DNA of 64,000 nt, from positions 1,178,001 to 1,242,000 of the forward strand of contig NZ_CP141614.1 in the NCBI RefSeq assembly GCF_035593265.1, given 5' to 3'. The notes under the pieces are model-generated. The model did not search any database and was not told where the DNA came from. It worked only from the letters and a program-made list of their open reading frames with translations. Below are positions 26,595 through 33,414 of this stretch, in pieces (position 1 is the stretch's first letter; every line of letters begins with the position of its first letter). The stretch comes from Limnochorda sp. LNt (GTDB lineage Bacteria; Bacillota; Limnochordia; Limnochordales; Geochordaceae). The position numbers and the translations under genes were made by a program.

Positions 26595-26697
26595 GGCGTC
26601 GGCCGACGGCCGGCATGCCCCGCCGATGACGCCTCTTTAGCGCTCCCCGTCGCCTCGCAGCAGGAACCGAGCCCCGGGCGTCGTAGGTCATCGTTCA

Positions 26698-26721
26698 GAA
26701 AAGGATTTCGACAACCTTTTC
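26698..26721 (+). promoter_or_regulatory. LacI-type operator candidate
   Basis: A 24-bp imperfect palindrome centred on a CpG: GAAAAGGATTTC then GACAACCTTTTC, with 10 of 12 positions symmetrical. A central CG with AT-rich arms is the usual shape of LacI/PurR/CcpA-family sites. It lies 20 bp before the lacI-like start, suggesting autoregulation and control of the whole operon. Confidence 0.55.
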
Positions 26722-26741
26722 AGAAGCCGATCTCGGGGCGG

Positions 26742-27896
26742 GTGCGGCAAGGATTGCAGAGCGTCTCGGTGCGGGATGTGGCCCGAAGAGCCGGCGTCTC
26801 GATAAGTACGGTCTCGCGGGTGCTGGGCGGGAGCGCGCCGGTCTCCGCCGAGTTGCGCGCGCGGGTGATGCAGGCTGTCGAGGAGCTGGGGTACCGCCCC
26901 AACGCGCATGCGCGGGGCCTTCGCCTTGGTCGGACGGGCATCATCGGCCTTCTGGTGCCCGACGTCTCCAACCCGTTCTTCGGCGAGCTGGCACGGGTCA
27001 TCGAGGTGAGCGCCAGCCGAGCCGGCTACAACGTCCTGCTTTGCAACAGCCAGAACGAAGCGGCGCGCGAGCGGCAGTACCTGGATCTCCTTCAGTCGCA
27101 GAGGGTGGACGGGCTGCTGGTGGTGGCCTCCAGTTTGCAGCGCTCGGACCTGGAGCGCTTCGGGCGGGCGACCGGCGCCAGGGTGGTGGCAATGGACCGC
27201 AAGATCGAGGGATTCGAGGGGCCCTGGGTGGGATCGGACCCGTTGCCGGGATGCCGTGAGGCGGTGGAACACCTCGTCGCACTGGGGCACCGGCGCATCG
27301 GGATCGTCCGTGGCCCGGTGGGGGTTCTCGCGAGCGAAGAGCGTTACCAGGCCATGGTGAGGGCCCTCGAGGAGCGCGGCCTCTCCCCCTCCCGAGCCTG
27401 GACCTGGGCCGGCGAGTACACGTTTGAGACGGGTGCTAGGGCCGGTGCCCGACTGGCCCGATGTCGTCCGGGTGAGCGCCCCACGGCGGTCATCTGCGGT
27501 AGCGAACTGGCCGCGTTCGGTCTGATTCAGGCGGTGGAGGAGGCGGGTCTTCGCGTGCCCGACGACCTCTCCGTCGTCGGGTACGACAACACGCCCTTCT
27601 CTGCGGTCTGTCGTCCCCCCTTGACCGTCATCGCGCAGCCCATCGAGCGCATCGGCCAGGTGGCGACCCGCACGCTGCTGCGCCTGCTGCAGGCGCCGCT
27701 GCGTCGCCAGCCCGAGCCGCTGATGCGCATGCCGGGGATGGGCGAGGCCCCTCGGCCCGCTCCTGGGGAGAGACGAGCCCGCAGCGTGGCCCTGCCGACG
27801 CGGCTGGTGGTGCGGCAGAGCACCACGGCAGTGCCATCGCCCGACGCCCCGACGCGTGGGAGACGAGGCGGATCGGATGGCGTCGGCCATGCATGA
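26742..27896 (+). CDS. LacI-family transcriptional regulator
   Basis: 384 residues. N-terminal helix-turn-helix VSVRDVARRAGVSISTVSRV, hinge helix ELGYRPNAHARGLRLGRTG, then a periplasmic-binding-protein-like sensor with LLVPDVSNPFFGELA, VDGLLVV and LSVVGYDNTPFSAVCRPPLT. It should bind a sugar or nucleoside ligand. The C-terminal ~50 residues after EPLMRMPG extend past the usual end and are Arg/Pro-rich. GTG 26742 starts it. Its 3' end overlaps the kinase gene by 20 bp, so it heads a sugar-utilisation operon. Confidence 0.9.
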   Translation: MRQGLQSVSVRDVARRAGVSISTVSRVLGGSAPVSAELRARVMQAVEELGYRPNAHARGLRLGRTGIIGLLVPDVSNPFFGELARVIEVSASRAGYNVLLCNSQNEAARERQYLDLLQSQRVDGLLVVASSLQRSDLERFGRATGARVVAMDRKIEGFEGPWVGSDPLPGCREAVEHLVALGHRRIGIVRGPVGVLASEERYQAMVRALEERGLSPSRAWTWAGEYTFETGARAGARLARCRPGERPTAVICGSELAAFGLIQAVEEAGLRVPDDLSVVGYDNTPFSAVCRPPLTVIAQPIERIGQVATRTLLRLLQAPLRRQPEPLMRMPGMGEAPRPAPGERRARSVALPTRLVVRQSTTAVPSPDAPTRGRRGGSDGVGHA

Positions 27897-28872
27897 CCGG
27901 GAAGCCCCCGTACTCGTGGCAGGCAGCATCAACGTCGACCTCCTGGTGGAGGTGCCGCACCTTCCGGTTCGCGGGGAGACGGTCGCAGCCCGGCGGCTGC
28001 ACCAGCAGGTCGGAGGCAAGGGGGCCAATCAGGCTGTCGCCGGCGCTCGAGCCGGCGCCCGAGTGGTGCTGTATGGATGCGTCGGCGACGACGTCTGGGG
28101 CGAGCGGGCCCTCTCCTATCTGCGCGAGGAGCAGGTCGAGACGGGCTTCGTGCGAGTGACGCCGGGGGAGACGACCGGCCTGGCCGTCATCACCGTGGAC
28201 AAAGATGGCCACAACACCATCGCCGTCGTGCCGGGGGCCAACGGGTCTCTGCCCGATTCGCTGCCTCCGGACTTGAGCGAGGCCATGCCATCGTTCGCGG
28301 CCGTGGTCGTGCAATTCGAGATCCCCTCCCCCGCGCTCGGGGCTCTTTACCGGCGGGTGGAGCAAGTGCGGTGCTCCCATGGGGTGAGAGCGCCGCGGCT
28401 GATCGTCAATCCGAGCCCGTTGGTCAGGCAGTCGCTCCCCGACCCCGGGTTGGCCGACCTCTTGATCGTCAACGAAGTCGAGGCGTCGGAGCTGAGCGGC
28501 GTGGACGTCGCCGATCCCCGACGGGCTGCTCTCGCCGCCCGGCGGTTGGCCGAGTCGGTGCGGCCGGGCGGGGCCGTCGTCGTGACCCTTGGCCCTCAGG
28601 GGGCGGTGGTCTGGGAGGTTTCGGGAGCGTGCTGGCACGTACCGGCCCTGCCCGTCAGGGCGGTGGACTCGACGGGAGCGGGCGACGTCTTCACGGGGGT
28701 GTTGGTGGCCGCGCTCATTTCGGGACGTGGCCTGGTCGCCGCCGCGCGGCTGGCCGTGGCCGCTTCGGGTCTGTGCGTGACACGCCACGGTGTCCAGCAG
28801 GCCATTCCCCGGCGAGCCGACATCGAGCGAGCGCTGGCACGAGTGCCCGGGCCGGTCTTGCTGGCAGAGTGA
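27877..28872 (+). CDS. PfkB-family sugar kinase (ribokinase-like)
   Basis: 331 residues. Ribokinase motifs: VAGSINVDLLVEVPHLPVRG at the start, the first PfkB signature VGGKGANQAVAGARAG, and the second signature DSTGAGDVFTGVLVAAL with the catalytic Asp; NPSPLV and IVNEVEA also match ribokinase. It probably phosphorylates ribose or a related sugar or nucleoside. The ATG at 27877 lies after GACGAGGCGG; GTG 27856 and ATG 27889 are alternatives. Together with RpiB downstream, ribose 5-phosphate would enter the pentose phosphate pathway. Confidence 0.88.
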   Translation: MASAMHDREAPVLVAGSINVDLLVEVPHLPVRGETVAARRLHQQVGGKGANQAVAGARAGARVVLYGCVGDDVWGERALSYLREEQVETGFVRVTPGETTGLAVITVDKDGHNTIAVVPGANGSLPDSLPPDLSEAMPSFAAVVVQFEIPSPALGALYRRVEQVRCSHGVRAPRLIVNPSPLVRQSLPDPGLADLLIVNEVEASELSGVDVADPRRAALAARRLAESVRPGGAVVVTLGPQGAVVWEVSGACWHVPALPVRAVDSTGAGDVFTGVLVAALISGRGLVAAARLAVAASGLCVTRHGVQQAIPRRADIERALARVPGPVLLAE

Positions 28873-28902
28873 GCAACTCCGTGACGGAAGGGGTGAGTCC
28901 GT

Positions 28903-30036
28903 TTGTCGTCGCCTGGTGAGAGCCGATTGTTCAAGAAGGTCTTCGGCTCCGTGGCCGCTGCCAACGTGGGCTCGGCCATGGGGGCCGCGGTCGAATGGGT
29001 GAGCGTACCGGGCGGAGGCTGGAAGGCCATCGAGGAGCAATTGGGTTGGGTGGACAGGTTCCTCCCATGGGTGCAACAGGAGCGCGACGTCCGCTACTGG
29101 AACAACAGCCCGCGGTTGCACTACCATCACGTCGACATGGCGCCGGGCATGACCGAGGATGGCGCCGAGCTGCGCTACTTGCTGGGTCTGGCCATCGCGG
29201 AGAAGGGCGATCGCATCACCGTCGACGAGCTCGCCGAGACATGGAGGCGTCACATCCCTCGGGATCGGATCGGCTATCTGTTCAATCCGCACATCAAGAT
29301 CCACCTGGATCGACTGCTCGCGGGCGACGAGACCTCGCGCATTCCGCCGCGTCTCATCGGTTCCATGACGCCCTGGCCCGGACTCGTCGATGCGGCGCAC
29401 ATGATCGGGCCCGTGGGCATCATCAACGCTTGCGATCCCGCACAGGCCGCGCTCGATGCCGCGGAGCTGTCGTACCTGCTGCAGCCTCCAGCAAGCGGCG
29501 GGGTGGAGGCGGCGCGTGTCGTCGCGGCCGCGACGGCAGCGGCCTTCTGGCCCGACGCCACCGTCGAGTCCATCATCGACGCCGCACGACAGTTCGTCTC
29601 CGTTCACACGCGAGAGATCATCGATGAGGCCCTCGAGATCGCGCGGCGATATCCCGACGTACGCGCCATCCGCGAGCCCCTTCGACGTCACTTCATGCCG
29701 ACCTATCCGTACGCGGATGGTGTCGAGACAGCTGAGGTGATGGCCCTGTTTTGGGTGACGAGGGGGGATGTGCGAGAGGGGATCATAGCAGCTACCAACC
29801 TGGGGCGTGATACGGACTGCATAGGCGGCATGCTGGGATCCATCTGCGGTGCTTTCAAGGGGATCGACGCGGTTCCCGCCGATTGGGTCGAGACGGTCCA
29901 GAGAGCCATCGACTCCAATCCCTACACGGTCCAGAGGCGTTCCATGAGAGATCTGGCGGAGGGGCTCACCCGTGCTGTCGTACGTCGCCGCGACGCGTTG
30001 CGCAGGCAGCTAGCGGCCATCGACAGCCTGGCGTGA
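28903..30036 (+). CDS. ADP-ribosylglycohydrolase-family protein
   Basis: 377 residues, TTG start with GGAAGGGG 9 nt upstream. The N-terminal glycine region (SVAAANVGSAMGAAVEW) and C-terminal metal motif NLGRDTDCIGGMLGSICGA match the ADP-ribosylglycohydrolase fold with its two-magnesium site. The usual TDDT motif is replaced by MTEDGAELRYL, so this belongs to a divergent branch. Classical members remove ADP-ribose from Arg, Asn or DNA. Here the operon with ribokinase, RpiB and a TRAP importer argues for a catabolic hydrolase acting on an imported ribosyl compound. Context suggests, but does not prove, that role. Confidence 0.8.
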   Translation: MSSPGESRLFKKVFGSVAAANVGSAMGAAVEWVSVPGGGWKAIEEQLGWVDRFLPWVQQERDVRYWNNSPRLHYHHVDMAPGMTEDGAELRYLLGLAIAEKGDRITVDELAETWRRHIPRDRIGYLFNPHIKIHLDRLLAGDETSRIPPRLIGSMTPWPGLVDAAHMIGPVGIINACDPAQAALDAAELSYLLQPPASGGVEAARVVAAATAAAFWPDATVESIIDAARQFVSVHTREIIDEALEIARRYPDVRAIREPLRRHFMPTYPYADGVETAEVMALFWVTRGDVREGIIAATNLGRDTDCIGGMLGSICGAFKGIDAVPADWVETVQRAIDSNPYTVQRRSMRDLAEGLTRAVVRRRDALRRQLAAIDSLA

Positions 30037-30070
30037 GCCATCGCTCCAACTTCAGGGGAGGGAACAGGGC

Positions 30071-31054
30071 ATGCAACGTCGACTGATGGTGACGGTGCTC
30101 CTATCCTTGATGGTGCTATCTGGCTTCCACGCGGTCGCCCAGGCCGGCACCATCACGGTGCGACTGCCACACTGCTGCTCGGTCGACAGCCACTTTCAGG
30201 CAGGTGCCGTGCGGTTTGCGGAGCTAGTCGAGCAGAAGACGAACGGGCGATTGCGCGTCAGCATCTTCCCGGGCGGGCAGTTGGGCCAGGAGACGGAGGT
30301 CATCCAGGCCGTACAGACGGGCGTGCTGGAGATGACCTTCATCGGTCACGATCCCCTCGCCCAGTTCGCCCCGATGGTGACCCTGTTGAGTCTGCCCTAT
30401 CTCTTCGAGAGTCACGACCAGGCCTTCCGCATCCTCGAAGGCCCCGTGGGCAAGGAGATCGAGAAGGAGCTGGCCCGCAGGAACCTCGTCGTCCTGGGCT
30501 GGGGGAACAACGGGGCACGGGTCTACACCAACAGTCGCCGCCCCATCGAGAGCCCGGCAGACCTGAGGGGCCTCAAGATCCGGAGCCCCGAGAACCCCAT
30601 CAATCTTGCCATTACCCGGGCGCTGGGAGGCACGGCGGTGGCCATCCCGTACGGAGAGGTGTACACGGCCATCCAGCAGGGTACCATCGACGGCCAGGAG
30701 AACGCGGTCATCAACATCTACCCGGCCAAGCTTCAGGAAGTCCAGCGATACATGTCCATGACGCATCATCTCCTCTCGTTCACGGTGTTGCTCGTCAACA
30801 AGCCCTTCTTCGACTCCTTGGATCGGGAGCTGCAGGCGGCCGTGCGCGAGGCCGCTGCTGAGGCCATGCGGTTCCAGCGTCAACACGTGGAGACATTGAC
30901 CGACAGGCTGGTCCAGGAGATGCAGCAGCAGGGGATGCAGGTGAACTGGCCGGATCTCGAGCCGTTCCGAGCTGCCACGCGCAGGGTGCACGAGGAGTAC
31001 GTAGGCAGGTTGATCCCGAGGGAGCTCTACGAGATGGTGCTGGATTCCCTGTGA
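30071..31054 (+). CDS. TRAP transporter substrate-binding protein (DctP family)
   Basis: 327 residues. Signal peptide MQRRLMVTVLLSLMVLSGFH ending AVAQA; mature start GTITVRLPHCCSVDSH; then VEQKTNGRLRVSIFPGGQLG, EMTFIGHDPLAQF, and the family's central DLRGLKIRSPENPI and GGTAVAIPYGEVYTAIQQGT. DctP proteins bind organic acids or sugar acids in the periplasm and deliver them to DctQM. GGGGAGGG precedes ATG 30071. It is 34 bp after the glycohydrolase gene. Confidence 0.92.
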   Translation: MQRRLMVTVLLSLMVLSGFHAVAQAGTITVRLPHCCSVDSHFQAGAVRFAELVEQKTNGRLRVSIFPGGQLGQETEVIQAVQTGVLEMTFIGHDPLAQFAPMVTLLSLPYLFESHDQAFRILEGPVGKEIEKELARRNLVVLGWGNNGARVYTNSRRPIESPADLRGLKIRSPENPINLAITRALGGTAVAIPYGEVYTAIQQGTIDGQENAVINIYPAKLQEVQRYMSMTHHLLSFTVLLVNKPFFDSLDRELQAAVREAAAEAMRFQRQHVETLTDRLVQEMQQQGMQVNWPDLEPFRAATRRVHEEYVGRLIPRELYEMVLDSL

Positions 31055-31115
31055 TCCCCGTGAGTGGGTGCCTGTTGCTCGGATAGCAAGCCGTGGAGAG
31101 GGAGCGGGCGAGCCG

Positions 31116-31595
31116 ATGACTCCCGTGCTGCGACTGTTGCGATGCGTCGTCGAGTGGCTGGTGATGGGCCTGACCGGCATGTTGGTGGTGACGGTGTCGG
31201 CCAACGTGTTCGCCCGCTACCTCTTCCTTTCGGGCCTGGTTTGGGCTGAGGAGCTCGCCCGGATCGGCTTCGTCTGGGTCGTCTTCCTGGGCGCCTATGT
31301 GGCGCTGACCCGCGGCAACCATCTGGCCATCCGCCTGGTCACCGACCGGGTGCCGGCCCGTCATCGCCGGGCCGTCAGGACCGTGAGCGGCTTGCTCATG
31401 CTGGCCTTCCTGGGAACCGTCGCCTGGTACGGGAGCGTGCTGGTCGCCCGGACGGTGGCGTTCGGCCGCGTCACGCCCATCCTCGGCATCTCGGCGGCGT
31501 GGGGTTACGCTGCCGTCCCTGTGTCGTCGGCCCTGATGTTCGTCCACGTGTTGCATCTCCTGTTGAGTGGGTCCGAAACGGATCAAGGCCAATAG
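31116..31595 (+). CDS. TRAP transporter small permease (DctQ)
   Basis: 159 residues with four membrane helices. Motif FLSGLVWAEELARIGFVWVVF is the DctQ signature around the second helix. It forms the membrane unit with DctM. ATG 31116 is chosen over the longer frame because the upstream residues are not hydrophobic. Confidence 0.88.
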   Translation: MTPVLRLLRCVVEWLVMGLTGMLVVTVSANVFARYLFLSGLVWAEELARIGFVWVVFLGAYVALTRGNHLAIRLVTDRVPARHRRAVRTVSGLLMLAFLGTVAWYGSVLVARTVAFGRVTPILGISAAWGYAAVPVSSALMFVHVLHLLLSGSETDQGQ

Positions 31596-31604
31596 GAGGG
31601 CTGG

Positions 31605-32903
31605 GTGCACAAGCCCATGTCGCTGGCCATTCTCCTCGGGACATTCTTCGCTCTGCTCGCGGCGGGGCTCCCCATCGCCTTCGCCCTCGGGCTGGCCTCA
31701 CTGGCGTACATGATCCTCTTCATGCCGGGCGTGTCGCTGACCATCATACCCCAGCACATCTTCGCGGGCGCAGACTCCTTCACGCTGACCGCGATCCCGT
31801 TCTTCGTACTCATGGGCGAACTCATGAACGCCGGCGGCATCTCCCGCCGACTCGTCGACTTCGCGCGCACCCTCGTCGGCCACTTGAGGGGGGGCCTTGG
31901 CCTCGTCTCCCTCGTCGCCAGCATGATCTTCGCCAGCTTCTCGGGGTCGGCCATCGCCAACGCGGTCGCCACCGGGTCCGTCACGATCCCCAGCATGATA
32001 CGCGCCGGCTATCCGCGGGCCCTGGCGGCGGCGATCGAGGGCTCGGCCAGCAGCCTCGGCGCCGTCATCCCGCCCAGCATCCCCATGATCGTCTACGGCA
32101 CCCTCGCGGGTGTCTCGGTGGGCGGGCTGTTTGCCGGTGGCTACGTGCCCGCGCTGCTCATGGGGCTTGGACTGGCCGTGGTCATCCGGGCCAAGGCCAA
32201 ACGGCTTGGCATCCAGGTGCAGGCCCGTGCTTCATGGGGGGAGATACTCCAGGCGCTGCGGGAGTCCGCGCTCGCCCTGCTGACGCCGGTCATCGTCATG
32301 GGGGGAATCCTCGGCGGGGTCATGACACCTACCGAGGCCGGAGCGGTCGGAGCCCTGTACACTCTGCTGATGGCGTTGCTTGCCTACAGGGAGCTCTCGT
32401 GGCGCGATCTGCCGAGGATACTGCTCAACACAGCCCTCCACACAGGGGTCGCCATGCTGGTGATGACGGTGGCGACCGCCTTCAGCTGGATCATGGCCTA
32501 CGAGATGATACCCAACCGTGTGGCCAGCGCGGTCCTATCCAGCATTCAACAGCCGTGGTTGCTCATGATCGCCATCGTCGCGCTCTTGCTGGTCATCGGC
32601 ACCTTCCTTGACACCATCTCGGCGCTGGTGATCCTCACACCGGTCCTGGTGCCCGTCGCGACGCGGGTCGGCATCGATCCTCTCTTCTTCGGCATCATCG
32701 TTACCATCGCTCTGACACTCGCGGTGCTGACCCCGCCCGTCGGCGTGGTGCTGTTCGTGACATCCAGTACAGCGGGCACCACCCTGGAGAAGACCAGCAG
32801 GGAGGTGCTGCTGTTCTTAGCCGTCCTGGTCGCCGGTACCTTGCTGTGTGCGGTGTGGCCCGACCTGGTGATGTGGCTGCCGAGACTGTTGGGCTTCCGC
32901 TGA
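31605..32903 (+). CDS. TRAP transporter large permease (DctM)
   Basis: 432 residues and about twelve helices. Signature stretches are PFFVLMGELMNAGGISRRLV, ASFSGSAIANAVATGSVTIP, and GVMTPTEAGAVGALYTLLMA. DctM provides the sodium-coupled translocation path. GTG 31605 follows AGGAGG at 31594, 9 bp after dctQ. Confidence 0.93.
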   Translation: MHKPMSLAILLGTFFALLAAGLPIAFALGLASLAYMILFMPGVSLTIIPQHIFAGADSFTLTAIPFFVLMGELMNAGGISRRLVDFARTLVGHLRGGLGLVSLVASMIFASFSGSAIANAVATGSVTIPSMIRAGYPRALAAAIEGSASSLGAVIPPSIPMIVYGTLAGVSVGGLFAGGYVPALLMGLGLAVVIRAKAKRLGIQVQARASWGEILQALRESALALLTPVIVMGGILGGVMTPTEAGAVGALYTLLMALLAYRELSWRDLPRILLNTALHTGVAMLVMTVATAFSWIMAYEMIPNRVASAVLSSIQQPWLLMIAIVALLLVIGTFLDTISALVILTPVLVPVATRVGIDPLFFGIIVTIALTLAVLTPPVGVVLFVTSSTAGTTLEKTSREVLLFLAVLVAGTLLCAVWPDLVMWLPRLLGFR

Positions 32904-32943
32904 GAGAGGCGGAGAGGGTCAGGCCAGGCGCGAGAAGAGGGGG

Positions 32944-33414
32944 ATGGACGTGCGAGTCGTGGTAGGCGGGGATCACGCCGGGTTTCCCCTGAAGCAGAAG
33001 GTGGTCGCACGGCTCAAAGCGTGGGGACACGACGTAGAGGACATCGGCACGTTCAGCGAGGAGCCTGTCGACTTCCCGGACGTTGCCGAGGCGCTGTGCC
33101 GGAGGGTGACCGCCGGGGAGGCCCAGCGCGGGATCCTGGTCTGCGGGACGGGCGTCGGTGCCGCCATCGCGGCCAACAAGTACCCTGGCATCCGTGCCGC
33201 CGTCTGTCATGACGTCTTCTCCGCCCACCAGTGCGTGGAGCATGACGATGTCAACGTGATGTGCATCGGCGCGTGGATCGTCGGCGAGATGCTTGCATAC
33301 GAACTGGTCGCGGCCTACCTGGTCGCGGTGCCGGATCAGGCTCCCGAGTTCCGGCGCCGCATCGCCAAGCTGCATGAGATGGAGAGCCGGTTGCGCCCAG
33401 CACCGGGTAGCTGA
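32944..33414 (+). CDS. rpiB: Ribose 5-phosphate isomerase B (RpiB/LacAB family)
   Basis: 156 residues. VVGGDHAGFPLKQKVVARL at the start and GILVCGTGVGAAIAANKYPG with the catalytic Cys are RpiB motifs, followed by VCHDVFSAHQCVEHDDVNVM. RpiB interconverts ribose 5-phosphate and ribulose 5-phosphate. The segment after DDVNVM reads CIGAWIVG rather than the usual SRVxG type, so a different pentose or hexose phosphate substrate cannot be excluded. Last gene of the TRAP operon. Confidence 0.88.
   Translation: MDVRVVVGGDHAGFPLKQKVVARLKAWGHDVEDIGTFSEEPVDFPDVAEALCRRVTAGEAQRGILVCGTGVGAAIAANKYPGIRAAVCHDVFSAHQCVEHDDVNVMCIGAWIVGEMLAYELVAAYLVAVPDQAPEFRRRIAKLHEMESRLRPAPGS

Follow-up and report, generated by a model that had tools for sequence, protein, structure and literature searches.

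The nearest published operon to the locus described here is yegTUV of Escherichia coli, in which YegT resembles nucleoside:H+ symporters, YegU is similar to ADP-ribosylglycohydrolases (ARH) and YegV is a sugar kinase; this operon is repressed by GgaR (YegW), has no known function and has been linked to glycogen accumulation (PMC10819704). It shares with our locus the presence of a transporter, an ARH-family gene and a sugar kinase in one regulated operon. However, it contains an MFS transporter in place of the TRAP importer and neither an RpiB nor a PCC-domain gene, and YegU has unaltered TDDT/DTDT motifs and branches in the tree far from the ARH-family protein studied here. The latter has its fold and Pfam family in common with the ADP-ribosyl hydrolases DraG, ARH1, ARH3 and Tri1, but differs from them by its altered metal motifs, its scores below the DraG and Tri1 equivalog cut-offs and its location within an uptake operon. 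The importer shows the DctPQM architecture and the conserved arginine of TRAP systems for sugar acids and related acids. The isomerase retains the catalytic Asp, His, Cys, Thr and His of E. coli RpiB (ribose-5-phosphate isomerase B/allose-6-phosphate isomerase), whereas the phosphate site has lost arginines and the GGRH motif its His. A literature search found no paper joining an ADP-ribosylglycohydrolase with a TRAP transporter; matches for ARH, ribokinase and operon included papers on staphylococcal mec elements and one that is not about a catabolic ARH operon. This outcome supports the opinion of an earlier note on this DNA that a catabolic ARH served by a TRAP importer would be new or little described.

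The window, i.e. the whole 64,000-nucleotide stretch analysed, belongs to a genome of 3.02 Mb in a single contig. Seven ORFs, all on the plus strand, follow each other head to tail between 26742 and 33414 (Table 1), and the family assignment of each was above the curated Pfam cut-off. In gene order, the intergenic distances are -41, 30, 34, 13 (61 if DctQ starts at its ATG), 9 and 40 bp, and the three adjoining TRAP genes each scored above their cut-offs, so that the tight seven-gene operon with one overlap proposed in the earlier note is borne out. A promoter scan gave no hit. The two terminator-like sites both lie within dctM, and their number corresponds to chance level.

Table 1. Features of the operon and of its putative operator, in window coordinates
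Feature	Position	Strand	Evidence and remarks
32-bp inverted repeat, putative operator of the LacI regulator	26694-26725	.	16-nt arms, 13/16 pairs (81% complementary)
LacI-family regulator	26742-27896	+	Pfam LacI 69 bits and Peripla_BP_3; first gene of the operon
PfkB-family ribokinase-like kinase	27856-28872	+	Pfam PfkB 202 bits; 41 bp overlap with lacI
ARH-family protein, TEDG/GRDTDC subgroup	28903-30036	+	PF03747 ADP_ribosyl_GH 105.7 bits; TTG start; core gene of the module
DctP, TRAP solute-binding protein	30071-31054	+	Pfam DctP 294 bits; signal-like N terminus; R150, R171
DctQ, TRAP small permease	31068-31595, or from ATG at 31116	+	Pfam DctQ 107 bits
DctM, TRAP large permease	31605-32903	+	Pfam DctM 388 bits
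RpiB/LacAB-family isomerase	32944-33414	+	Pfam LacAB_rpiB 162 bits; altered phosphate-binding residues

The first gene codes for a protein with a LacI-type HTH and a sugar-binding domain, for which the closest NCBIfam models (CytR, PurR, CcpA and RbsR) all scored far below cut-off. Upstream of it, a palindrome matches the LacI-type operator that had been supposed to precede the operon and is a candidate site for this regulator. Its core pairs at 9 of 11 positions around a central CG (26699-26720), and a pattern scan found it once in the window, where none was expected; the repeat has a GC content of 34%, against 71% for the window. As the 64 kb contain 12 CG-centred sites of at least 9/11 and four sites of at least 13/16, a palindrome of this quality is only moderately rare, and the position just before lacI is the main argument for an operator. 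No operator common to the window and the related clusters was found. In two of these clusters, where the LacI genes lie downstream of dctM, similar TAAAC-type palindromes occur upstream of the ARH gene (L022:4365-4386, and at a distance of about 100 bp in L021). They are likely operators that differ from the one in the window, in line with the differing LacI proteins (32-38% identity).

The third gene product belongs to the ARH superfamily according to its PF03747 match (cut-off 26.2 bits) and its predicted structure (pTM 0.82, with low confidence at residues 33-83 and 143-162). The model aligned with ARH3 at a Z score of 28.9 (rmsd 3.6 over 296 residues) and with DraG, ARH1 and ARH3 at Z scores of 24-29, with Foldseek giving matches too, and these values make the ARH fold secure. 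The TDDT/DxDT signature of ADP-ribosyl hydrolases of the DraG, Tri1 and ARH3 type was not found in this protein. In its place are T84-E85-D86-G87 and D303-T304-D305-C306 (TEDG and GRDTDC), present in 10/10 close orthologues and shared by a sister clade from Clostridia, Spirochaetes and other Bacillota, whereas five aligned bacterial ARHs with normal motifs contain [TS]DD[TS] and RDxDT, and YegU contains TDDT and GDTDT. In the tree, the close and sister clades form one group against the ordinary ARHs, YegU included (support 100/99). None of the NCBIfam ADP-ribosyl hydrolase models was approached (29 bits against a cut-off of 337 for DraG, 25 against 490 for Tri1). Since the metal motifs of the whole clade are altered, ADP-ribose chemistry should not be assumed for it. 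The enzyme of this operon probably acts on a small glycoside and not on ADP-ribosylated macromolecules, although the TEDG change might also denote a reaction other than glycoside hydrolysis.

ARH orthologues with 69-75% identity are rare and patchily distributed. A scan of bacterial genomes yielded six contigs, from Sphaerochaeta, two other spirochaetes, Devosia and two Bacillota. Two further orthologues were found in the class to which the window belongs (3/73 genomes, counting its own) and one more in the Devosia family. At all nine loci with enough downstream sequence, the window included, the ARH gene precedes dctP, dctQ and dctM, and this unit thus occurs in same-class relatives, Spirochaetota, the Devosia family and Bacillota. 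The identity matrices of ARH, DctP and DctM correlate over the nine loci (r 0.84-0.92, Mantel p 0.0001-0.0004), which indicates that the module was inherited or transferred as a unit; for ARH and RpiB, r was 0.70 over six loci. This recurrence shows that the gene set did not come together by chance. The search for the same set in other genomes, suggested in the earlier note, therefore succeeded for ARH-DctPQM but not for the kinase, which adjoins the ARH gene only in this genome. Close ARH relatives were not found on plasmids, where there were only two remote matches (27-32%), and, as a point against the glycoside reading given below, the loci have no conserved gene for an aglycone. In L021, a same-strand run directly upstream of the ARH-TRAP genes (L021:11043-19501) comprises two aldehyde-dehydrogenase-type ORFs, an agmatinase and a polyamine-type ABC transporter, with a possible link to guanidino compounds.

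DctP retains R150, R171 and the DGQEN stretch of solved TRAP receptors. R171 is invariant in six orthologues and aligns with the arginine of these receptors that contacts the ligand carboxylate (SiaP R147 type). The nearest solved structures are the TRAP receptors 4pdh, 4pak, 4ovq and 7bbr (Z ~30), which we take to bind sugar acids and related acids. Together with the conserved arginines, they make an acidic ligand the natural expectation for DctP. However, identity to the solved receptors is ~30% or less in the aligned structures, and their individual ligands can therefore not be transferred to DctP.

An RpiB gene lies within the cluster in the window and in L004, L005, L007, L021 and L028. 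The window protein passed the RpiB equivalog model TIGR01120 marginally (140.2 against 138.65). Compared to E. coli RpiB, all six proteins keep the catalytic residues D9, H10, C66, T68 and H99, but R110 is replaced by W, K or Q, H134 by F, A or T, and R133 or R137 is lost, so that two of the three phosphate arginines (R110, R133, R137) are changed in each. In the window protein, W111, E135 and F136 replace R110, R133 and H134, and R139 stands at the position of R137. Most of these genomes encode further RpiBs, and the five non-cluster proteins have R110, R133, H134 and R137 intact. In three genomes, the other RpiB, which is of the housekeeping type, carries an additional N-terminal domain resembling low-molecular-weight protein-tyrosine phosphatases, with the motif VCSGNTCRS (G000:C1:240521-240949, i.e. 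L077, and L078 and L079). The arginines corresponding to R110, R133 and R137 bind the phosphate of the substrate in studied RpiB enzymes, the histidine of the GGRH motif aids substrate binding or ring opening (PMC4783025, PMC3755991), and free D-ribose was a further candidate substrate (PMC4783025). Given these roles, the cluster RpiB is unlikely to be a plain second ribose-5-phosphate isomerase. Against this, L004 and L007 have a Lys in place of R110, and window-type RpiBs have additional arginines close to R137, so that the phosphate may still be bound.

In L003, L006 and L022, and in seven loci of the sister clade, a gene with a PCC domain (PF03479) is found beside or near the ARH gene. Genome-wide, PCC genes are absent from all six genomes with a cluster RpiB and present in all four others. 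The exact probability of this split was 0.005 for the ten genomes and 0.012 for the nine fully covered loci, values that are suggestive only, because the genomes are related and the pattern was noticed before the test. Because the split runs within groups (the window and G065 in one genus; L003 and L004/L007 among the spirochaetes), it is less likely to result from simple descent. Four His and one Glu are invariant among ten PCC proteins (H...HxH...GHxE), a pattern that resembles a metal site. Their solved relatives are labelled as hypothetical or putative DNA-binding proteins, and we know of no enzymatic role of PCC-domain proteins.

The ARH genes of the sister clade also adjoin importers, of the TRAP type in L058, of the sugar ABC type in L056, L057, L093, L094 and L096 and of the peptide ABC type in L039, the ABC types being assigned by eye on the basis of the order of the ORFs and their N-terminal sequences. 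On one strand, L094:2270-11998 carries genes for a solute-binding protein, two permeases, ARH, PCC, a cupin, an aldehyde dehydrogenase, a xylulokinase (513.8 bits; cut-off 380) and a ketose-bisphosphate aldolase of class II, with a HAD-type protein. Judged from this content, L094 is a catabolic layout and the fullest version of the pathway. Two TEDG-type ARH genes lie in tandem with an adjoining PCC gene at L038:7753-9919. Ordinary, TDDT-type ARH genes were seen beside ribokinase, LacI and ABC genes (L061:1787-8848), beside ribokinase and ABC genes (L041:7489-15875), beside RpiB (L060:2-1408) and beside ABC genes (L040:911-8406), and these four loci are independent hints of nutritional ARHs. 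As catabolic-looking clusters thus occur with ordinary ARHs as well, and in view of yegTUV, this kind of operon appears to be already known but little understood, the window holding a variant form of it.

The reading we favour, tentatively and at somewhat less than even confidence, is that the LacI-controlled operon is a salvage unit for an anionic glycoside. DctPQM would import the glycoside, which the ARH-family variant would split in the cytoplasm into the sugar and an aglycone bearing the acid group. The aldose set free in this way would be turned into a ketose by the RpiB-like isomerase, or by the PCC protein in sibling clusters, either as the free sugar or in a form other than the usual 5-phosphate, and a kinase (of the PfkB type here, of the FGGY type in some sibling clusters) would deliver a sugar phosphate to central metabolism. 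We infer the glycosidic cleavage, the acidic ligand, the isomerization and the order of these steps from the features described above. FGGY kinases act mostly on ketoses or polyols, and their occurrence in some PCC clusters, such as L022 with its PCC gene, FGGY kinase and hexulose-phosphate-synthase-like protein, fits isomerization before phosphorylation there. A pentose, for instance ribose, could well be the sugar that is released.

Rather unlikely, but next in order, is the catabolism of a sugar acid of the aldonate or uronate type, in which the TRAP system imports the acid itself, the ARH-like protein has been recruited for another hydrolysis (of a lactone or an amide) and RpiB or PCC and the kinase process the acid-derived sugar. 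The acid-binding receptors nearest to DctP and the variant TEDG/GRDTDC motifs are consistent with it, as are the surroundings of L004, where sugar-acid-type genes such as KDPG-aldolase- and KDG-kinase-like ORFs were recognized by eye. However, to our knowledge the ARH family does not act on lactone or amide bonds, and the clustering of related, normal-motif ARHs with ribokinase suggests ribosides.

The earlier note started from a ribosylated or N-glycosidic compound, which would be imported, hydrolysed to ribose, phosphorylated by ribokinase (RbsK) to ribose 5-phosphate and isomerized by RpiB to ribulose 5-phosphate. All enzymes of this route are present in the window, whose RpiB passes its model. 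Most of the other genomes have ribokinase-like genes away from the cluster, and RbsK is encoded beside the more distant ARHs of L061 and L041. The kinase aligns with E. coli ribokinase (1gqt) over the GGKGANQ stretch and the DSTGAGD region, and N14, D16, G42, N46, E143 and D255, presumably the sugar-contact positions of RbsK, are identical in the pairwise alignment, which favours ribose. However, it reached only 239.7 bits against the cut-off of 299.65 of the ribokinase equivalog TIGR02152, and no homologue of it was found next to the ARH gene in the other ARH-TRAP loci. Moreover, the phosphate site of the cluster RpiB is altered, the genome encodes another, ordinary RpiB, and RpiB is missing or replaced by PCC in L003, L006 and L022. 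The order ribose, ribose 5-phosphate, ribulose 5-phosphate is consequently not supported, and this pathway as a whole is unlikely. The idea of glycoside salvage through a TRAP importer and a catabolic ARH survives, with the conservation of the unit, its neighbourhoods and the ARHs of sugar-uptake operons in its favour; the ribose-specific order finds no such support.

It is highly improbable that the ARH is not a pathway enzyme but a regulatory eraser of ADP-ribosylation controlling the importer or the isomerase, since, for all its structural match to DraG, ARH1 and ARH3, it scores far below the DraG and Tri1 cut-offs, its partners in sibling clusters are metabolic and no ADP-ribosyltransferase-like neighbour was recognized by eye in the clusters examined.

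Beyond the salvage of an anionic glycoside, a wider proposal, doubtful at present, would make the TEDG-type ARHs a new class of small-glycoside hydrolases and the PCC proteins, whose annotation is DNA-binding, metal-dependent aldose-ketose isomerases that replace a phosphate-blind RpiB, the sugar being isomerized before it is phosphorylated. The usual interpretation of ARH-family genes is that their products erase ADP-ribosylation, and a co-inherited module of ARH, importer and isomerase in unrelated phyla allows a nutritional role to be tested on a defined case. From the alternation of RpiB and PCC, likewise, a specific function can be proposed for the bacterial PCC domain and put to the test.
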